43,037 nucleotides of DNA, from NCBI GenBank assembly GCA_919902495.1, contig CAKKRC010000046.1:1-43037 (forward strand), written 5' to 3'. Shown here piece after piece: positions 10,407 through 30,750 of this stretch. This DNA comes from Nitrospiria bacterium (GTDB lineage Bacteria; Nitrospirota; UBA9217). Under the pieces are notes generated by a model. The model searched no databases. It saw only the letters and a program-made list of their open reading frames with translations, and was not told the origin of the DNA. Every line of letters starts with the position of its first letter. Within the stretch, counting starts at the first letter, position 1. A program made the position numbers and the translations under genes.

Positions 10407-10775
10407 ATGACCGTCTGGGAAAAAACGCTGATCAATTTGCAAAAAGGCTACGGCAAGCTGATGTCCTTTACCGCCAACGCCTCCGAACGCATCAAGGCTG
10501 AGATCACCATTGTCCGGCTCAGGATGCAGATCGATGCGTTGCGGGGAACGATCGGCGATCACCACCGTTCTATAGGAAAGAAGCTCCTCGAAATGAGGGA
10601 CACCGATGCGCTCCCCGGTTCCTTTGCCCTATTTTTTACGAACAGTGAAATAACAGCGCACTTGGAAAAGATCGAACGGGCGCAAAAGGACCTGGAGATA
10701 CTCCTTGATGACCTTCGGCATGAATCAGACGCGCTGAAGGCGGTGTCGGTCCCTGATGAGGAGAGGTCTGCATGA
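10407..10775 (+). CDS. Coiled-coil protein, unknown
   Basis: A 122-aa cytoplasmic protein that is almost wholly helical, with heptad-like stretches at about residues 25-60 (IKAEITIVRLRMQIDALRG) and 80-108 (ITAHLEKIERAQKDLEILL). No membrane segment or known domain is visible. AAGGGG stands about 8 bases before the ATG. Its stop overlaps the ATG of the prepilin peptidase by four bases, so it is translated with the pilD-kinase-regulator set and may serve the same system, but nothing in the sequence shows its role. Confidence 0.75.
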   Translation: MTVWEKTLINLQKGYGKLMSFTANASERIKAEITIVRLRMQIDALRGTIGDHHRSIGKKLLEMRDTDALPGSFALFFTNSEITAHLEKIERAQKDLEILLDDLRHESDALKAVSVPDEERSA

Positions 10776-11599
10776 TCGTTGGCATCGTCCTTCTCTTCGG
10801 GCTCATTCTCGGCAGCTTTTTAAACGTTTGCATAGCGCGGATCCCTCACGAAACGTCCATTGTCAGTCCTCCTTCCCATTGTCCGCGCTGCAAGACCCCG
10901 ATCCACTGGTACGACAATATTCCCCTGGTCAGCTATGCCGTCCTCCGGGGCAGGTGCCGGACGTGCGGACAGCATATATCCTGGCGCTATCCGCTCGTCG
11001 AGCTGATGAACGGTCTTCTCTATCTCTGGGCGTTCACCGAATTCGGTATCACCGGCGAGGCGTTCCTGGTGATGGCGCTGTGCTCATCTCTTGTGGTCAT
11101 CACGTTCATTGATCTTGACCATCAGATCATTCCTGATATTATTACGTATCCCGGCATGGTGATCGGTCTGGTCGTGGCTCCATTCTTCATGTCCACCCTC
11201 GATGCACCGCTGCCATTCGGACTGGACAGCGTTCTCCCGTCTCTGGGACAGTACGGCGCTGCGTTCCTGAATGCTTTCATCGGCCTTCTGCTCGGTGGCG
11301 CACCGCTCTATCTCATCGGGTTGCTCTGGGAGAAACTCCGGAAGGTCGAGGCCATGGGAGGTGGTGACGTTAAATACATGGCAATGGTCGGCAGTTTTCT
11401 GGGGTGGAAGGGGGCCTTTCTGACCATCATGCTCGGCGCGATGACCGGCTCGATCGTGGGAGTTGCGCTCATCTTGCTCAAGAAACACCAGGCTGACAAG
11501 GTCATCCCCTTCGGACCGTTCCTGGCATTCGGTACGCTCATGACCCTGTTCCAGGGGTCCGATATCATTTCGTGGTATCTTGCTCTTATCAGCATATGA
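10772..11599 (+). CDS. pilD: Prepilin peptidase (type IV leader peptidase, A24)
   Basis: This integral membrane aspartyl protease removes the leader from type IV pilins and pseudopilins and N-methylates the new N-terminus. The 275-aa protein has the N-terminal cytoplasmic zinc-binding domain with C37/C40 and C62/C65 (CPRC and CRTC), and the two catalytic aspartates: D114 in ITFIDLDHQIIPD and D199 in MGGGDVKYMAM, the GxGD-type motif. About seven to eight membrane helices follow. The start overlaps the previous stop and the stop overlaps the kinase start (ATGA both times). No pilin gene is in the window, so substrates lie elsewhere. Confidence 0.96.
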   Translation: MIVGIVLLFGLILGSFLNVCIARIPHETSIVSPPSHCPRCKTPIHWYDNIPLVSYAVLRGRCRTCGQHISWRYPLVELMNGLLYLWAFTEFGITGEAFLVMALCSSLVVITFIDLDHQIIPDIITYPGMVIGLVVAPFFMSTLDAPLPFGLDSVLPSLGQYGAAFLNAFIGLLLGGAPLYLIGLLWEKLRKVEAMGGGDVKYMAMVGSFLGWKGAFLTIMLGAMTGSIVGVALILLKKHQADKVIPFGPFLAFGTLMTLFQGSDIISWYLALISI

Positions 11600-20345: not shown

Positions 20346-20374
<29 letters not shown>

Positions 20375-22628
20375 GCAGAGGCTCCTTGTGAATATCGGTC
20401 AGTACCGGCAGGATGATAGTGAAGGTGGTTCCCGCTCCAAGCGTGCTTGCGACCTTGATATCACCTTTGAACCGCTTCACGATATTGTAGCTTACGGAGA
20501 GACCGAGCCCGGTCCCTTTGCCGACTTCCTTGGTCGTGTAAAAAGGATCGAAGATCTTTTCCAGGTCGGCAGCAGGGATCCCGGTGCCGGAATCGTGGAA
20601 ATCGATGAAGATCGTGTCGTGGCCCTGCTCGTTCAGGCCGTGTCTGCTCGTTACCGAAAGCCTGCCGCCATCGGGCATCGCATCCAGCGCGTTCAGGATG
20701 ATGTTGATGAACACCTGGGCGATCTGCCCCTCGTCGATCATGGTCCGGGGAATGTCCGGGGTGAGGCTGACAGTTATGTCGAGGGTGCTTTTCATGCGCT
20801 TGTCGAGGCGCATGAGGTCAAGGGACGACTTCAAGATATCGTTGATCTGGACCAGTTTGATCGTGGTCGAATCAGGACGGGAGAACGTGGACATCTGGCG
20901 CACGATCTCGGTGATGCGCAGGATGTGGCTGTTGATGGTGTCGAGGCTGTTCTGGGCGAACTCGTCTGTGGTCATCTCCCGCAGCAGCTGGGCGAAGGTC
21001 GAAATGGAGGTGAGGGGATTGCCGATCTCGTGGGCGACGCCCGCGGCAAGACGTCCGAGAGCGGCGAGCTTTTCCGAGTGCAGGACCTGCTGCTCGAGCT
21101 TCTTGGCCGTCGCGACCTCTTTGTCGACCCTGTCCTCAAGCTCAACCGTGTATTGCTTGAGCGCTTCCTCAAGGTGCACGCGTTTGGTGACGTTGTTGCT
21201 TGCGATCACGATGCCGGTCACCTCGCCGGCGATGATCAGGGGACTTACGTTCATGTCGAAGAAAATCGGTTCCGGCTGGATCCCCGTGATCCGGTACTCC
21301 TTGACCTCGATGCTGGTGCTGCCTGTAATGCACCGATGCAGGAGGGTTTCGATGGGGACCCCCTCATAGCGAGGAAGATTGTCCGGGAACAGCGAGAAAA
21401 ATTGCCTTCCGACGATGTCCTGTTTGGGACGGCCGAGGGCCTTTGCCTGGGCGGTGTTCACGGTCTTGACCGTCAGGTCCCGGTCCAGGACAAGAAGGCT
21501 GGTCTGCGTGTTCTCGATGATGTTCTCAAGATAGTTCTTCGCGATCACGATCTCCTGCTCGAGGCGGCGCTGATTTTCGAGATGCATGGCCTTTTCCTCG
21601 GCCTTGATCTTCTTTCGGTAAGTGATCGTGGAAATGGCGGAGGCGACCAGCGTCGTGATGAAAATGGAGATGATCAGGAGAGAGAAGAACGACTGGCTTT
21701 TATGCATCAGGGCGATCACATCCGAGTAGGGGGCGGAGACCACGACGAACCAGGAACGAACGCCGACCGGGAACTTGTAATAAGCCGCGAGCTTGTTCTC
21801 TCCACCCGGAGCTACATAGTACCCGAAGGTCTCCGCCTTGCCCTCGACCATCTGCTTTTCCGCATTGAAGGAACGGTGGCACTGGAAGCACGAGGGGTCC
21901 GTATGGAACAGGTTCTTGCCGAGCATTTGCGGTTGGGTGGGATGGTAGAGGAGCGTGCCATCGCTGTCCATCATCCATGCATATCCGCGGGTGCCGGACT
22001 TGACCGGCAGCAGATACTTCTGCGTGATGCCGTCAACGGACAGGATGGCGAGGACGACGCCGTTGAACTGAGGATCTTGTGATCCGGGTGCTATCTGATA
22101 GATGGGGACCGCTATGATGAACTGTTTCGAGTCAGGCCTTTCGACGACAATGTTCATGAGGTCCGTGACCAGGTGCTCGTTCGCGCGAAGGGTGCTCGCC
22201 CTGATAAAATATTTCGTATCAGCAAGACTATCGCCTTCCCGCTTCGGATAGCCGCTGTCATACAGGATGGCGCCGCGCCGGTCCAGCACCCGGAGGGCAA
22301 CGAGGATGTCGCTTTCGATGTGATAGTGTATCCCTTTTACGACCGCACGTGCCTGGGAGCTCCGGCCGACCTGCATGATATCGGGCAGCTGCGAGATGAC
22401 GCTGATGTCCTTATAGACATGATCGAGGAACGATTCCACGTTGATGGCGACCTGCTGGGCAAGCAGGAGCTGCTGTTTGTTGAACTGGTCGGCCATCTCG
22501 TTCCGGAGCGTCTGATGAAAGGTCTGTCCGATGATGATGATGAGGGAAAGGATGAAAAGAAAGGCCAGGATGACCACGAGCGGCGTAAGGATCTCACGGT
22601 TCTTCAGGTTGCGGAACGCGCTGAACAT
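20346..22628 (-). CDS. Cache-PAS histidine kinase with periplasmic CxxCH haem motif
   Basis: A 760-aa membrane kinase: helix about 17-37, a large periplasmic double-Cache region (about 38-310), second helix about 312-332, PAS (about 375-480), coiled coil, HisKA with H533 in AAGVAHEIGNPLTS and a HATPase_c domain (G boxes DSGTGIP and GKGTGLGLS). Within the membrane-distal part of the Cache region lies CFQCH (C247, C250, H251), the covalent haem-c attachment motif, so the sensor probably binds haem in the periplasm and reads redox state or a gas such as NO or CO. It should phosphorylate the overlapping NtrC-type regulator. The ATG at 22628 has no ribosome binding site and lies only 5 bases beyond a promoter -10. 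Confidence 0.92.
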
Positions 22629-22760: not shown

Positions 22761-24578
22761 TCAAAGGTCAAGGGCGGTCGTAAGATGGTCTCCCTCGATC
22801 TGCCATACTTTATCCAGGGGCAGGGTGAATGAAAAAGAACTTCCTTTTCCCGGGGTGCTTTCCGCCCATATCCTGCCGCCATGGTATTCGACGATCTGCT
22901 TGGTAATGGCAAGGCCGAGTCCGGTGCCTTCCGCGTGGGTCGTGAGGACGTCACCGGAGCGGCGGAATTTCTCGAAAATGACTTCGAAGTCCCGGGAAGG
23001 GATCCCGACGCCGGTATCCGAGATCTTCACAATGATCTGATGACGCGGGACGTCCTCCGTAAATGCATTGATGGAGATCGTACCGCCATCGTGAGTGAAT
23101 TTTACGGCATTGGACAGGATGTTCGTGATCACCTGAATCAAGCGGTCCCGATCGCCGTACAGCTTGGGCAGGGAAGACGGAACGTTCATGATGATGGAGA
23201 GGCTCTTGTTGTCTGCAAGGGATTGCATGCTGGTCACGGAGTTCTGGATGATCTCGCTCAGGGAGATGCGGGTCACGTGCCAGCTCAGTTTTCCCGCTTC
23301 GATCTTGGTGAGGTCCAGGATATCGTTGATCAGCCTTGCGAGGCGGTCGGTTTCATTGTTGATGATGGAGAGGAGGCGGGTCCGCTTCTCGCCCGTCATT
23401 CGGGATTTCATCATGATCAACTCGGTGAACGCCTTGATGGACGTGAGCGGGGTGCGAAGCTCGTGAGATACGACCGAGATGAAGTCCGATTTGAGCTGGT
23501 CGAGCTCCTTCAGCTTTTTGTTGGCAAGCTCCAGTTCGCGGTTCGCCACTGCCAGGTTCTGGTTCGAGAACTGAAGACGCTCGTATGCCTTGGTCAGATT
23601 TTCCGTCTTTTCCGCCACGCGAAACTCAAGGTTGCGGTTCAGGTCCTCCAGTTCATGACGATTCTTCTCGATCTCCTGGGCCATTTTGTCGAAGCTCTGC
23701 GACAGGACGCCGATCTCGTCGTTCGAAATGAGGTTCGACCGCGCATTGAGATCGCCCTTTTCGAGTCGCCGGATGACGCTGACCATGTGCCCGAGAGGGT
23801 TGGAAATGCTGGTCGCGAGCAGGATGCCGATCCCTGACGTCAGGATGAGCGTGGCGATGGTTACCAGGAAGATCAGGTTGAAAAGCTGGCTCATGACGGG
23901 CTGGTTCGGCGAGAACTCTAACGGCATGAGGCTGAGTTCCATGCCGACCTTCCGGTACATCAGGAAGCCGAGGGCGATGAGGGGCGCCGTGACAGTCGCG
24001 AGGAGGATGGTGACCAGGCGGGTGCGGGTGTTGATGTGGATCACCTTGGTCTCGTCCACCAGGATGTTCTTGGTCTTTTCCGCGAGGAACTGGCGGACCG
24101 GATACAAGAGCCGTTCGGTAAGGAAGAACGAGAAGATGGGGAAGAATGCAAGCCCGATCCCGGCATACAGACCGAGCCTGATGTTCTCCTTCAGCGGTAG
24201 ACCGCCGACGGTCCCCATGTACAGGCAGTCGAAGAGGGTCACGAGCTCGTAGCGAATGAGGACCGTGGCAGCGTGGACAATGGGCAGGTTCAGCGCCCGC
24301 GTACGCGCTTCAGCCATGACATCATCCGGCGGGTCCAACCGGCGTTTCAGATAGAACGCCAGCATTTCGATAGGCCGGTTCTCCCAGCGTTCCATGAAAT
24401 AGTATGCAGAGAAGATGCCGATCGGGGCGAGAATTACAATGGTGATGAAGATGTAATGGAACAGGTGGGCCGTCGAGAACTGCATGCTTACCAGGATATA
24501 CGGGATCAGGGTGGAAAAGATGACGGCGATGATTACCAGTTCGCTGTAGATTATTTTTTTAGAGACATTAAGTTCCAT
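22761..24578 (-). CDS. HAMP-domain sensor histidine kinase with multi-helix N-terminus
   Basis: A 605-aa membrane kinase. The N-terminal 260 residues hold about five hydrophobic helices (9-31, 39-62, 134-157, 188-209, 233-259) with little periplasmic sequence. Then come HAMP (about 260-312), a coiled coil, HisKA with H372 in SVVSHELRTPLTS, and HATPase_c with DTGVGIP and GTGLGLAIT. It resembles phytochrome/PhoR-class hybrid-free kinases; the signal may be membrane or cytoplasmic. No regulator is adjacent downstream; the likely partners are the CheY-like protein at the head of the operon or the NtrC-type one at its end. It starts 16 bases after the methyltransferase stop. Confidence 0.92.
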   Translation of the reverse strand: MELNVSKKIIYSELVIIAVIFSTLIPYILVSMQFSTAHLFHYIFITIVILAPIGIFSAYYFMERWENRPIEMLAFYLKRRLDPPDDVMAEARTRALNLPIVHAATVLIRYELVTLFDCLYMGTVGGLPLKENIRLGLYAGIGLAFFPIFSFFLTERLLYPVRQFLAEKTKNILVDETKVIHINTRTRLVTILLATVTAPLIALGFLMYRKVGMELSLMPLEFSPNQPVMSQLFNLIFLVTIATLILTSGIGILLATSISNPLGHMVSVIRRLEKGDLNARSNLISNDEIGVLSQSFDKMAQEIEKNRHELEDLNRNLEFRVAEKTENLTKAYERLQFSNQNLAVANRELELANKKLKELDQLKSDFISVVSHELRTPLTSIKAFTELIMMKSRMTGEKRTRLLSIINNETDRLARLINDILDLTKIEAGKLSWHVTRISLSEIIQNSVTSMQSLADNKSLSIIMNVPSSLPKLYGDRDRLIQVITNILSNAVKFTHDGGTISINAFTEDVPRHQIIVKISDTGVGIPSRDFEVIFEKFRRSGDVLTTHAEGTGLGLAITKQIVEYHGGRIWAESTPGKGSSFSFTLPLDKVWQIEGDHLTTALDL

Positions 24579-24594
24579 GGGTACGTTTAGTGTG

Positions 24595-25758
24595 TCAGGG
24601 GAACAGCGCCTTGATCGCGAGCTTTCGCAGAAGCGCAGCGTTTGTGACGAGAGCAGCCATCGCCTCGGGGCTGGAAGCCAGAAGTCCCTTGGCCGTTCTG
24701 ATGCCCGCTGATGTCAGTTTCACGGAGTCCGCCTCCGGAAAGTTCGCTATCCGGTTCAGCGGAATGTCGTTCTTGAGCGTGTAGATGACCACCAGTCGTG
24801 ATTCCCCCTGGATCACCGGCATGAACGTGTGATGCAAGGCGCTTACTTTCTTGATAAGCTCGTCAGCCTCCGTTTCGCTGAAGAAACCGGTGAAATCGGT
24901 GAACAAGGTCGCCAGCAGCACGTCCACGGAGATCGTCTGGATGTTGTTCGCGATCACCTGGTTGAAGAATATTCCGTAGCGGGAGATCCGGATCATGTCC
25001 TGGATGAACTTCTCGCGTTTTGCGATCGGAAGGAAATGGAATACATTGAACGCATAGACCCAGTCAAAGGCATTGTCCGGGAAGCGGGTCATGTCGGTCA
25101 CATCGCCAACCTGAAGGTCTATCTGGTCCTGAAGTCCCTCTTCCGAGTTCTTGCGTTTTCCCTGTTCGATCGTATGGATGTTCATATCGATCCCCGTCGC
25201 GCTGACGCCGGGGCAGGTCCGGGAGATCTCCCGGAGGACCGACCCGTCACCGCAGCCGAGATCAAGGATGGTATGGCCGGTCGACAGCCCTGAACCCTTG
25301 AAGAATTCGGCGGAGGACTTGGAGAGCTGCGACGCAACCCGGGGGATATAGTCGCGGCTGATCTTGCCCTGGCTTATGCTGTCAAGACCGACGCCTTTCT
25401 GATACGCATCTTTGGAATGCTGAATGGCCTTGGTGAAATAGGAGAACATGTGATGCAGGCCGAGCAGATCGGGAGTGGGCGTACCCTCGCGCAGCAGCGA
25501 TCCCTTGGTGGTAAGCGTATATCCGCCGTCCGATCTGTTGATATATCCGTAGGAAACAGCGAACCGAAGCCAGCGTTCCACCTTGGTTATGTCATATCCC
25601 AGTTGACCCGACAGTTCCTGGGCAGTGATCGGCTTGTTGAGCGGTATCCAGTCGAAAAAGCCGAGTTCGATCCCCTGGACCGTGTTGAGCCCGATCGCGC
25701 CATGGATCAGCATGGTCATCTGCTCCGAGGAAAATTTTTTTATTTCTTCCGGTGTCAT
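24595..25758 (-). CDS. SAM-dependent methyltransferase, O-methyltransferase-like
   Basis: A 387-aa cytoplasmic enzyme with an N-terminal winged-helix/dimerisation domain (about residues 10-90, AIGLNTVQGIELGFFDWI... then KVERWLRFAVSYGYI) and a class I Rossmann methyltransferase domain whose motif I is ILDLGCGDGS with D166, and motif II TGIDMN. This two-domain plan is that of small-molecule O-methyltransferases. Substrate unknown. Its position inside a sensor-kinase operon is unusual: it might make or modify a signal, or methylate a component of the sensor pathway. It is flanked by 16-base gaps on both sides, so the transcript is surely shared. Confidence 0.88.
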   Translation of the reverse strand: MTPEEIKKFSSEQMTMLIHGAIGLNTVQGIELGFFDWIPLNKPITAQELSGQLGYDITKVERWLRFAVSYGYINRSDGGYTLTTKGSLLREGTPTPDLLGLHHMFSYFTKAIQHSKDAYQKGVGLDSISQGKISRDYIPRVASQLSKSSAEFFKGSGLSTGHTILDLGCGDGSVLREISRTCPGVSATGIDMNIHTIEQGKRKNSEEGLQDQIDLQVGDVTDMTRFPDNAFDWVYAFNVFHFLPIAKREKFIQDMIRISRYGIFFNQVIANNIQTISVDVLLATLFTDFTGFFSETEADELIKKVSALHHTFMPVIQGESRLVVIYTLKNDIPLNRIANFPEADSVKLTSAGIRTAKGLLASSPEAMAALVTNAALLRKLAIKALFP

Positions 25759-25774
25759 CAGAGCCTCCGTGACG

Positions 25775-26452
25775 TCAGTTCTTGTTGATCAGGGCCTTAA
25801 TCACGACGATACCATAAATGGCCCAGATGATGATGAGGATGCTCCAAATGAGGACGCTGAGCTTTCTCATGCTGGCTTCGTCGGATTTTTTTTCACGTCG
25901 TCTGATCTCGCGGTCCTTTACCTTTGCACGGAGATAGAATTGACGGTGATCGGCATATCGATCGGGAGAGAGTTCGAAGAGTCTTGCAATGATAACGGCA
26001 TCCTCACGACTGAGAGAAAAGGGGAACTCATACGAAGAATCGATATCAGGGTCGCTCATCAATATGTCCTCGATATCTTCAGGCCGTTTGGATCTCAACA
26101 TGGTTTCGTAGCAGGTGAGCAGGTTATCGTTGACGGTCTTAGAGAACGTTTTGAAGGGCCACATCTTTTCGAACTTGGAGTTGATAAAGCTGGACTCATA
26201 GCACAGGGACGCTTTGCGACAATCTCCCAGTTTCATGTGGCACAGACCGCTCAGCGCGAGGGCATTTGCCAGGCCGGAAACGCCGTTAGAAAGGGGGGCC
26301 GTGAAGGGATGGCCCCTGACGTCGATCTTTCTGAACAATTGCTCAGCTTGCTGGAGATCAACGATAGCCTGTTCGTACTTGTGCTGCTGGAGCAGGGCTG
26401 AGCCGCGCTCAAAGACCTGCTGGGCGATCATTTTGATACCGGTGTCCTGCAT
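25775..26452 (-). CDS. TPR-like protein with C-terminal membrane anchor
   Basis: A 225-aa protein. The N-terminal part has TPR-like helix pairs (FERGSALLQQHKYEQAIVDLQQAEQLF, then ALSGLCHMKLGDCRKASLCYESSF). A basic charged stretch (about 175-195) is followed by one hydrophobic helix at the C-terminus (about 198-220, VLIWSILIIIWAIYGIVVI), so it is probably tail-anchored with the repeats in the cytoplasm. TPR proteins scaffold others, here perhaps the kinases and receiver of the same operon. The specific partner is not shown by the sequence. Confidence 0.75.
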   Translation of the reverse strand: MQDTGIKMIAQQVFERGSALLQQHKYEQAIVDLQQAEQLFRKIDVRGHPFTAPLSNGVSGLANALALSGLCHMKLGDCRKASLCYESSFINSKFEKMWPFKTFSKTVNDNLLTCYETMLRSKRPEDIEDILMSDPDIDSSYEFPFSLSREDAVIIARLFELSPDRYADHRQFYLRAKVKDREIRRREKKSDEASMRKLSVLIWSILIIIWAIYGIVVIKALINKN

Positions 26453-26994: not shown

Positions 26995-27075
26995 GACTTG
27001 GAATGAGTTCGCTCAGGGTTCCACCGTCAGAGATCTGTGGACCACGAACCACCGGGCTGGAGCAAGGAGGAGTAT

Positions 27076-28470
27076 TTGGACGTCGGATTTGATATGCACG
27101 CGGTGTTACGGAAGGTCCTGAGAAACGGGGGAGAATACGCCGACCTGTACCTGGAGAGGTCCTCACCTCTTGCCATCCAGTGTGAAGATGACCGGATCGA
27201 GAAGGTTATTGCCGGGCGCGAATGCGGCGCTGGGCTGAGGCTTATATCCGGAAAGAGGACGGCCTACGCCTATACGAACGAACTTACCACATCATCGCTT
27301 CTTGGACTGGCCGAGACCATGAGCAGGTCGGTCAGGTCCCTAGAGGGGCCCGGGGAACGAACGATCGTCCTGCAGGGAACATCCCTTGCCGGCAGCGGGA
27401 ACTTCGTGAAACAACCGCCCGAGAAGGTAGCAACGGACAAAAAAGCGGATATGGTGAAGCGGGCAAACCACGTTGCCCGGAGCTTTGATCCGCGGGTACG
27501 TCAGGTGATGGTGACCTACCGGGAGAACCGCCAAGAGGTGCTCATTGCTTCATCCTCCGGCGAGGTGATCGAGGATGCGCGGTGCTATCTTACTGCCATG
27601 GTACAGGTGGTCGCGTCCGCCGGCGGGATCGTGCAGACGGGCTATGAGCCCGTGGGCGGTCTTATCGGTATGGAGCTCTTCGATGCGGAGCCTCTGGAAA
27701 TTGCAGCGGAAAAGGCTGCGCGCAGGGCCTTGATGATGCTGACCGCCCGTAAGGCTCCTGCGGGAAGGATGCCGGTGGTCCTGTCGTCCGATGCGGGCGG
27801 GACCATGATCCATGAAGCGATCGGTCATGGCCTCGAAGCGGATCTCGCCCAATCCGGGCTGTCGGTCTATTCGGGCAAGATCGGCCAGCAGATCGCGTCA
27901 CCGCTGATCACGGTCGTTGATGATGCGACCCTGCCGGGAAGAAGGGGATCGTTCTTCGTGGATGATGAGGGAACGCACGCGCAACGCACGGTCCTCGTGG
28001 ACCAGGGCATCCTGAAAACCTATCTGTACGATCGACTTACCGCGATGAAGGATGGGACCCTGTCCACGGGAAATGGCAGAAGAGAGTCCTACCGGCACCG
28101 CCCCATTCCCCGCATGACCAACACCCTGATCGCGCCGGGCGCAGCAAGGCCGGCCGATATCCTGAAGGCCACGCCGAAAGGCCTCTTTGTCCGCAAGATG
28201 GGGGGAGGGCAGGTGAATACGGTCAATGGAGATTTCGTGTTCGAGGTGAGCGAGGGATATCTCATCGAGAACGGCCGGATCGCTGAACCCGTGCGCGGTG
28301 CGACGCTCGTGGGGAACGGCCCGTCCGTTCTTATGTCGATCGACCTGGTCGGTTCGGACCTGGGCTTTTCCATCGGAACCTGCGGCAAGGACGGCCAGGG
28401 CTCGCCGGTGAGCGATGCCCAGCCGACACTCAGGATCCCTGAGATCACCGTCGGTGGAGAAGTGGAGTAG
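27076..28470 (+). CDS. tldD: TldD-family metalloprotease
   Basis: TldD, usually as a heterodimer with TldE/PmbA, is a zinc protease that degrades unfolded peptides and matures some modified peptides. The 464-aa protein has the family motif HEAIGHGLEAD with zinc ligands H246 and H250, and a C-terminal GTCGKDGQ with the third-ligand Cys; GYEPVGGLIG and NTVNGDFVFEV are also typical. I chose TTG at 27076 because AAGGAGG ends 5 bases before it; a GTG at 27037 and an ATG at 27094 have no such signal. No tldE partner is in the window. Confidence 0.93.
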   Translation: MDVGFDMHAVLRKVLRNGGEYADLYLERSSPLAIQCEDDRIEKVIAGRECGAGLRLISGKRTAYAYTNELTTSSLLGLAETMSRSVRSLEGPGERTIVLQGTSLAGSGNFVKQPPEKVATDKKADMVKRANHVARSFDPRVRQVMVTYRENRQEVLIASSSGEVIEDARCYLTAMVQVVASAGGIVQTGYEPVGGLIGMELFDAEPLEIAAEKAARRALMMLTARKAPAGRMPVVLSSDAGGTMIHEAIGHGLEADLAQSGLSVYSGKIGQQIASPLITVVDDATLPGRRGSFFVDDEGTHAQRTVLVDQGILKTYLYDRLTAMKDGTLSTGNGRRESYRHRPIPRMTNTLIAPGAARPADILKATPKGLFVRKMGGGQVNTVNGDFVFEVSEGYLIENGRIAEPVRGATLVGNGPSVLMSIDLVGSDLGFSIGTCGKDGQGSPVSDAQPTLRIPEITVGGEVE

Positions 28471-28477
28471 CGGTACG

Positions 28478-30217
28478 ATGTTCACATTCATTCGAAAGCG
28501 CCTCGAACTCAAGATCATCGTCTCCCTGACGCTCGTGATCGCCTGCATGATCGGGGTCTATACCTACATTGACATCGGACACATGCGGACCGACACGATA
28601 CGCACTTCGGAACGCACGCTGGGCGCACTGGCCGCGGCCATCAAGGGAACGGTGATCGCATCCATGAAAAAAGGCCATCATGAACTCGTCAAGAACATCC
28701 TTGACGCGGTCAATGTGCCCGATTTCATTGACCGGGTGATGATCTACGACGGTTCGGGACGGCCGGTCCAGGGACTTGAAAAATACGACAGCGGGGGTGG
28801 CCTGACCATGGACATCCCTCCTGCGATCCTGCATTCCGTGGTCAGGGGGGATATCAGTGATATTCGCGATCAGCGGGACAGCACCAATATAAGCTATTAC
28901 TCTCCCATCGAGAACAAGCCGGAGTGTTTCGGATGCCATGGGAACGCAGTAAAGCTGAACGGCATCCTTCGCATCGATTTTTCTCTCCGCGAACTGAACG
29001 ATCTGATCATCTCCCGCCGCAACCGGGAACTCTTGTGGAGCGCGGCAATGATCTTGCTTCTGGTCGGCGTGCTGGCCGCACTGCTGCGGATCGTTGTCTA
29101 TCGCCCGGTCAGGGAGCTTCGCGACGCAATGACAAGCACTGAAGGAGGGGCGGCGCTGACGCGGCTCTCCCGCAAGGGGACCGACGAACTTGCCGATCTC
29201 AAGAGCAGCTTTGTGAATATGCTCGACCGGATCGAGACGCTGCACCAGACGAACCTTGAAAAAGAAAAAGAGCTTGCCCGCACGGGAGAAGAGCTGCGGT
29301 TCCGTGCCGAGCTTCAGTCGATGTTCGACGCCATGCCCGACGGCGTGCTGCTGGTGGACAGGGAATTCAGGATTCTCCAGAGCAATCCGCGCGTGTTCGA
29401 GCTTCTTCCCCAGCTGAGCGATGCTGATGGCCGCATCCCGGCCGGCCAGGTAATGGATGGATCGTCGCCGCACCACGGACTGCAGGCCGCGATGACGAAC
29501 GGCAAAGTAGGTGAACAGCAAAGCACCCTGGTGCATCCTGATGGCCGGACCCGTCATCTCCATAGCATCTTCGCTCCGCTGGTCGAGGATGGCGCGACAA
29601 TGTTCGTGGTTGAGGTCATCCGGGACGTATCTGAACGGGTCACTACGGAGAGGGAACTGGCGGAAAAAACCTCGGAACTGCGCATGACCAACCGGCTCCT
29701 GGCACAGCTTGCCGTTACCGACAGTTTGACGCAGCTCTACAACCGGCGGCATTTTGACGAGGTCCTCTTCAAGGAGATCAAACGGTATAACCGCCGAAAA
29801 TACACCTCTCTTTCTCTCATGATGATCGATATCGACCATTTTAAGGATCTGAACGACCAGTACGGTCATCTTGCCGGCGACTCGGTGCTGCGCGAGTTGG
29901 CCCGTATCCTGCGCGAAGGGGTGCGGGAGACGGACACGATCGCCCGGTACGGCGGCGAAGAGTTCGCCATTGTGATGCCGGACACCCCTCTTGACGGTGC
30001 CGCCTATAAGGCCGAGATCCTGCGGCAGAAGGTCCAGCTGCAGGAATTTCCGGGAGCGGGAAAGCCTATTCACAGCACGATCAGTATCGGGGTCGCGGCC
30101 TATGTGACGGGTTTCCCGCATGACCTGATCAAGGCCGCGGACAAGGCGCTGTACCAGGCAAAGAACGGGGGCAGGAACACCGTGGTGGTCTCGCGGCGGG
30201 ATGAAGTGGAGGTCTGA
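28478..30217 (+). CDS. Diguanylate cyclase with periplasmic CxxCH haem sensor, HAMP and PAS
   Basis: A 579-aa membrane protein: helix about 10-30, periplasmic domain (30-185) containing CFGCH (C150, C153, H154), second helix about 187-208, HAMP (about 208-262), coiled coil, PAS (about 275-390) and a GGDEF domain with GGEEF at 492-496. RETD at 483-486 is the product-inhibition I-site five residues before it, so it is probably an active, feedback-limited c-di-GMP synthase. The CxxCH motif with IENKPECFGCHG and GILRIDFSLRELN resembles haem-c four-helix or Cache-like sensors. It starts 8 bases after tldD and ends 2 bases before mogA. Confidence 0.93.
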   Translation: MFTFIRKRLELKIIVSLTLVIACMIGVYTYIDIGHMRTDTIRTSERTLGALAAAIKGTVIASMKKGHHELVKNILDAVNVPDFIDRVMIYDGSGRPVQGLEKYDSGGGLTMDIPPAILHSVVRGDISDIRDQRDSTNISYYSPIENKPECFGCHGNAVKLNGILRIDFSLRELNDLIISRRNRELLWSAAMILLLVGVLAALLRIVVYRPVRELRDAMTSTEGGAALTRLSRKGTDELADLKSSFVNMLDRIETLHQTNLEKEKELARTGEELRFRAELQSMFDAMPDGVLLVDREFRILQSNPRVFELLPQLSDADGRIPAGQVMDGSSPHHGLQAAMTNGKVGEQQSTLVHPDGRTRHLHSIFAPLVEDGATMFVVEVIRDVSERVTTERELAEKTSELRMTNRLLAQLAVTDSLTQLYNRRHFDEVLFKEIKRYNRRKYTSLSLMMIDIDHFKDLNDQYGHLAGDSVLRELARILREGVRETDTIARYGGEEFAIVMPDTPLDGAAYKAEILRQKVQLQEFPGAGKPIHSTISIGVAAYVTGFPHDLIKAADKALYQAKNGGRNTVVVSRRDEVEV

Positions 30218-30219
30218 CC

Positions 30220-30750
30220 ATGCGTAGATCGTGCGATCAAGCCACCGGACCGGGGACCATCAGGACGGCGATCATCACCCTGAGCGACAAAGGGGCGAAG
30301 GGGGAGCGCGAGGACGAAAGCGGAAGGGTCATCCGTGACATGGTAACCGGCATCGGCGCCGATGTCCGTCACTATGAGGTGCTCCCTGATGAACGTGAGC
30401 GGATCGTCGACGCGTTAAAGCGCCATGCGGATTCTGGTGCGATCGATCTGATCCTGACCACGGGCGGTACCGGGGTCGCTCCCCGGGATGTGACGCCTGA
30501 GGCCACCCGTGAGGTCATCGACCGGGAGCTTCCGGGCATGTCCGAGGCCATGCGAGCGGAAAGTCTCAAGAAGACCCCCCATGCCATGCTGTCCCGTGCC
30601 ATAGCCGGTATGCGCAAACAGACCCTCATCGTGAACCTTCCCGGCAGCCCCCGTGCTGTCCGCGAGAACCTCGCTGTCATCCTTCCTGCACTGGTGCATG
30701 CCATTGAGAAGATCAAGGGCGATCCCTCCGACTGCGGCGCACCCTTGTAG
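30220..30750 (+). CDS. mog: Molybdopterin adenylyltransferase (MogA/MoaB family)
   Basis: The enzyme adenylates molybdopterin before molybdate insertion in molybdenum-cofactor synthesis. The 176-aa protein has the MogA/MoaB fold with LILTTGGTGVAPRDVTPEAT (TTGGTG at residues 80-85), GMSEAMRAES, HAMLSRAIAGM and NLPGSPRAV. Distinguishing MogA from MoaB by sequence alone is hard. GGAGG lies about 7 bases before the ATG. It follows the GGDEF gene by two bases; a shared transcript is certain but a shared function is not evident. Confidence 0.92.
   Translation: MRRSCDQATGPGTIRTAIITLSDKGAKGEREDESGRVIRDMVTGIGADVRHYEVLPDERERIVDALKRHADSGAIDLILTTGGTGVAPRDVTPEATREVIDRELPGMSEAMRAESLKKTPHAMLSRAIAGMRKQTLIVNLPGSPRAVRENLAVILPALVHAIEKIKGDPSDCGAPL

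Follow-up and report, generated by a model that had tools for sequence, protein, structure and literature searches.

Profile searches, structure prediction and comparison of orthologues indicate that a gene of a Nitrospiria bacterium, located at 28478..30217 on the forward strand of the window (the whole 43,037-nucleotide stretch of contig CAKKRC010000046.1 that was analysed), encodes a diguanylate cyclase in which a covalent haem outside the cytoplasm very probably switches c-di-GMP synthesis inside the cell. We consider it probable that this protein is a one-component c-di-GMP switch, driven by redox changes at its c-type haem and independent of the dCache histidine kinase encoded next to it.

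The architecture of the protein provides both ends of such a switch. The 579-residue reading frame was taken to start at 28478 and not at an in-frame ATG at 28415, because the start residue is common to all orthologues. By hydropathy, two hydrophobic stretches, assigned as transmembrane helix 1 (28496..28579, approximately residues 7-34) and transmembrane helix 2 (29024..29113, approximately residues 183-212), flank a periplasmic region of about 150 residues, and the haem c attachment motif CFGCH (28925..28939, residues 150-154) lies in this periplasmic loop. The second helix is followed by a HAMP domain (29102..29236, residues 209-253), whose PF00672 score of 22.9 bits is slightly below the cut-off of 25, by a cytoplasmic PAS domain (29324..29641, residues 283-388; PF08448 (PAS_4), E=6.7e-8) and by a GGDEF diguanylate cyclase domain (29711..30178, residues 412-567; PF00990, E=2.2e-50; TIGR00254, E=4.8e-54), all on the forward strand. 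Both the active-site motif GGEEF (29951..29965, residues 492-496) and the product-inhibition site RETD (29924..29935, residues 483-486) are invariant in the six orthologues long enough to cover them. RETD stands five residues N-terminal of GGEEF, which is the canonical spacing of an RxxD I-site, and with active-site motif and I-site both intact the sequence qualifies as that of a diguanylate cyclase. Reading frames, Pfam matches and hydropathy agree with the initial annotation, which had placed CFGCH between membrane helices and ahead of HAMP, PAS and a GGEEF domain with an intact RETD.

What kind of sensor lies between the two membrane helices? By profile and by predicted fold, the sCache-like ectodomain (28565..29023, approximately residues 30-182) groups with the c-haem sensor domains of GSU0582 and GSU0935. 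A sub-threshold Pfam match to Mcp40H-20_sensor covers residues 55-170 of the cyclase, and PF21563 gives 20.7 bits for the window ectodomain against a cut-off of 27, with E<=10 in all seven orthologues and a best value of E=1.2e-7. PF11845 (Tll0287-like) also stays below its cut-off in the window protein (13.3 versus 24.1 bits), the best orthologue reaching E=0.0013. When an alignment of the seven orthologous ectodomains was used as the query of a profile search of the PDB, the only significant matches were 3b47 (E=3.8e-5) and 3b42 (E=4.2e-5), which are periplasmic c-haem sensor domains from two Geobacter chemoreceptors, GSU0582 and GSU0935; the next match was Tll0287 (5b82), with E=0.61. An AF2 model of the ectodomain, built on a shallow alignment of three sequences (the window protein and two relatives) and of middling confidence (pLDDT 65.8, pTM 0.67), comprises two helices, one long and one short, and a sheet of five strands in which CxxCH separates strands 4 and 5. 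The succession of strand 109-119, CxxCH loop and strand 135-143 in this model corresponds to an insert before the last strand of a single Cache domain. Foldseek against the PDB ranked 3b42_B, 3b42_A and 3b47 as the top three matches of the model (E 4e-5 to 8e-5), with other Cache-type ectodomains (WalK, CitA) lower down. Low TM-scores to 3b42 and 3b47 (0.32-0.46, rmsd near 15) probably reflect the crystallisation of GSU0582 and GSU0935 as domain-swapped dimers (PMC8396549).

The haem attachment motif is rare in shuffled sequence, CxxCH arising in 76 of 200,000 trials with the shuffled ectodomain. Loss of the motif in orthologues was the observation that the initial annotation had named as contrary to its reading; it is retained in all seven intact orthologues, and also, as CFGCH, in a relative outside the family (G033) with 40% identity. 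Given its rarity in shuffles and its retention in the seven orthologues, a chance origin was rejected. A further conserved residue is Met63 (28664..28666), the predicted distal haem ligand. In GSU0935, the haem ligands and attachment residues are Met60, His144, Cys140 and Cys143 (PMC8396549). The histidine of CxxCH occupies position 110 in the aligned GSU0935 chain, an offset of 34 that places Met60 at position 26; His143 of GSU0582 gives the same offset, and Met26 of that chain is also aligned with Met63. The window residue is thus aligned exactly with the axial ligand Met60 of both proteins. All seven orthologues have Met63, and its column holds M in 28 of the 28 wider CxxCH-bearing homologues in which the column is aligned. 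Two full-length homologues that lack CxxCH (L087 and L113) lack Met63 as well, one of them being poorly aligned there. Met63 may still be conserved for merely structural reasons, the CxxCH-less controls being these two full-length homologues only.

For the redox-driven switch that we favour, the following sequence of events can be proposed. Haem c would be attached in the periplasm through Cys150 and Cys153, with His154 and Met63 as the axial ligands in the reduced state. With rising periplasmic potential the iron would be oxidised and Met63 released, as reported for GSU0582 and GSU0935, in which Met60 leaves the iron on oxidation and which have midpoint potentials of -156 and -251 mV (PMC8396549). 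An ensuing change in the N-terminal helix may be passed on through transmembrane helix 2 and the HAMP domain, possibly with the PAS domain, and alter GGDEF dimerisation and thereby the output of c-di-GMP, which the RETD I-site would cap. Oxidation may turn the switch either on or off. The same genome encodes cytochrome c assembly proteins and multihaem cytochromes.

Could the same architecture serve to sense NO? NO binding to the iron would then displace Met63 and set c-di-GMP, and the redox behaviour would be incidental, an explanation that we regard as possible but on balance not the probable one. NO binds to GSU0582 and GSU0935 whether the haem is oxidised or reduced, and in the reduced form Met60 is lost (PMC8396549); slow NO release has been described for a membrane-bound, HAMP-linked sCache_heme protein, NO sensing being proposed for signal-fused members of that family (PMC12889525). 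However, for the latter protein no sixth ligand from the protein is known, whereas in the window cyclase this place is taken by an invariant Met, and our genome search found no cytochrome cd1 nitrite reductase, which is one NO source among others. Judged by sequence, redox potential and NO are both candidates for the signal, redox being slightly favoured.

The occurrence of the cyclase was followed in 14 genomes of the family, with no further ones from the order, and, outside the family, in a sample of about 400 genomes from the phylum. Seven of the 14 encode an intact cyclase (G000, G001, G002, G003, G011, G012 and G013, the copy in G013 being cut by the contig end), and the six other intact orthologues are 54-62% identical to that of the window. 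The phylum genomes outside the family yielded a single full-length relative, the G033 protein, with 40% identity over residues 1-572. dN is lower than dS in the ectodomain, the HAMP-PAS part and the GGDEF part of the gene, at dS values near saturation. In G004, G008 and G010, tldD and mogA adjoin with the cyclase cleanly absent, and in G005, a sister species of the same genus, a remnant (L140, G005:C85, approximately 10612-11423) is left in an otherwise conserved locus. From this remnant about 570 bp with the CxxCH region and about 320 bp with the GGEEF region are missing, and there are further small breaks. Loss of the gene in some lineages shows that the cyclase is dispensable.

On the forward strand of the window, the cyclase is preceded at a distance of 7 bp by tldD (27037..28470, assigned by Pfam) and followed after 2 bp by a mogA-like molybdopterin gene (30220..30750; PF00994, E=5.7e-38). 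The linkage of tldD and cyclase was seen within the family only. The lasting neighbour is mogA, a molybdenum cofactor gene, which is kept even across families: it neighbours every intact orthologue with a long enough contig, lies beside the G005 remnant and is found in G033. The gene order in G033 (L194, G033:C53, 7564-12078) is c-haem histidine kinase, cyclase, MOSC protein, mogA. The kinase of this locus carries CYGCH, its PF21563 score of 32.1 bits is over the cut-off and its ectodomain is homologous to that of the cyclase; one haem signal could feed two outputs there. Taken further, cyclase and mogA might form an old unit in which the c-haem reads a redox or NO state set by molybdoenzyme respiration and passes it on as c-di-GMP, with one haem signal and two outputs in G033, a proposal that we rate as unlikely. 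Approximately eight molybdopterin oxidoreductases are encoded in the window genome. A connection of the cyclase with molybdoenzyme respiration is so far only a lead; operon inertia would give the same picture. If the connection holds, the cyclase would be functionally tied to molybdenum cofactor supply.

The initial annotation had proposed another partner, in that the cyclase and another CxxCH sensor, encoded in the opposite operon, would turn the haem-c state into two outputs from the same locus. The opposed operons are present as described, tldD, cyclase and mogA on the forward strand being divergent from kinase genes on the reverse strand. This other sensor is a histidine kinase (20346-22628, reverse strand) with a dCache_1 ectodomain (E=5e-19) and CFQCH at residues 247-251. 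That cyclase and kinase form one module, splitting one haem-c signal into a phosphorelay and c-di-GMP, seems to us very doubtful, even though a periplasmic CxxCH is conserved in both genes (seven of seven cyclase and 13 of 13 kinase orthologues) and several genomes share their divergent arrangement and gene order. The kinase motif lies in a loop after HPTQPQM(L/V)GKN, at a place that differs from that of the cyclase motif. Whether the periplasmic regions share a fold, as the initial annotation had asked, was examined by hhalign of the two ectodomain alignments, which matched no more than eight columns around CxxCH; an AF2 model of the kinase ectodomain on its own gave no useful information (pLDDT 37). 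Homology of the two sensor domains was rejected on these eight columns; the domains also differ in family, dCache versus single Cache, and in motif position. The two genes differ in retention as well. Thirteen of the 14 family genomes have the kinase, the exception (G002) being 74% complete; it is present in G004, G008 and G010, where tldD adjoins mogA with no cyclase between, and the G005 kinase, 93% identical to that of the window, is intact beside the broken cyclase. Across families, the neighbour of the cyclase is mogA and not this dCache kinase. What stands of the two-output proposal is a c-haem ectodomain driving a diguanylate cyclase, while the joint reading with the kinase falls on separate families and separate retention. 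We infer that the cyclase acts independently of the adjacent dCache kinase, with no conserved wiring between them.

The kinase side of the locus has features of its own. The fold position of the CxxCH in the dCache kinase is unlike that in sCache_heme domains and suggests an independent haem c insertion; our literature search did not find a published c-haem dCache sensor. The divergent operon also holds HAMP kinase, methyltransferase and TPR genes (22761-26452, reverse strand), a block that is absent from G005, G009 and G010, in which the flanking response regulator and the dCache kinase stay. A scan of the window for sigma-54-like patterns found nothing.

Finally, that the CxxCH of the cyclase is vestigial, metal-binding or a disulphide, in an ectodomain that senses a small ligand like ordinary Cache domains, is highly improbable: haem on the cyclase is a prediction and the two full-length CxxCH-less homologues exist, but CxxCH and Met63 are strictly co-conserved phylum-wide and the domain is homologous to two solved c-haem domains.

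Judged by its sequence, the cyclase belongs to a recently published kind of sensor, sCache_heme, some members of which are fused to c-di-GMP enzymes, and within it to the GSU0582/GSU0935 branch with a predicted Met ligand. For this family, which counts GSU0582 and GSU0935 as members, covalent haem in single Cache domains, fusions with c-di-GMP enzymes and an enrichment across several phyla are already on record (PMC12889525). With these two chemoreceptors the cyclase has in common the ectodomain family by profile and fold, the place of CxxCH, the Met60 equivalent, two transmembrane helices and a HAMP domain. It differs in having a PAS-GGDEF output where they have a chemoreceptor signalling domain, and their solved domains are only about 20% identical to the window ectodomain. 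The likeness to sCache_heme (DUF3365/Tll0287, PF11845) lies in a single Cache domain whose last strand is preceded by a CxxCH insert, whereas the window protein scores below the Pfam cut-off and has a predicted Met as distal ligand in contrast to the Cys of Tll0287. PA14_53310, a heme-regulated periplasmic CHASE4 diguanylate cyclase, is similar in that its GGDEF output is under the control of haem at a periplasmic domain; in that study, however, heme was added to the purified protein, CxxCH is unmentioned in the text and the sensor domain is a different one (PMC13277305).

Within the same genome, at least five further ectodomains are over the Tll0287-like cut-off; counts of CxxCH sensors come from family and homology searches and are lower bounds. 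Two membrane-anchored paralogues also combine a c-haem motif with GGDEF, and neither is orthologous to the window cyclase. One (C14:12294), counted among the ectodomains over that cut-off, joins a Tll0287-like domain with CLACH to GGDEF and has an ectodomain of the Tll0287 kind. The other (C61:26857, L086) has a GGEEF motif and differs by an extra CxxCH, with two such motifs (CKGCH and CHRCH) between its membrane helices; it is perhaps a di-haem cyclase. A whole-protein scan of the genome contigs returned mostly GGDEF-only relatives and two useful c-haem homologues (L019 and L037). The closest paralogous ectodomain in the genome, with CIHCH, is that of a histidine kinase (L082, G000:C61:3862-4584); counterparts occur in most genomes of the family, also in those from which the cyclase has been lost.

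In conclusion, the comparative data illustrate how easily a plausible 'shared locus' story fails, as retention and loss of the cyclase do not follow those of the kinase beside it. A conserved c-haem ectodomain that is wired to c-di-GMP and has kept its axial Met would allow the question of redox versus NO sensing to be asked directly.
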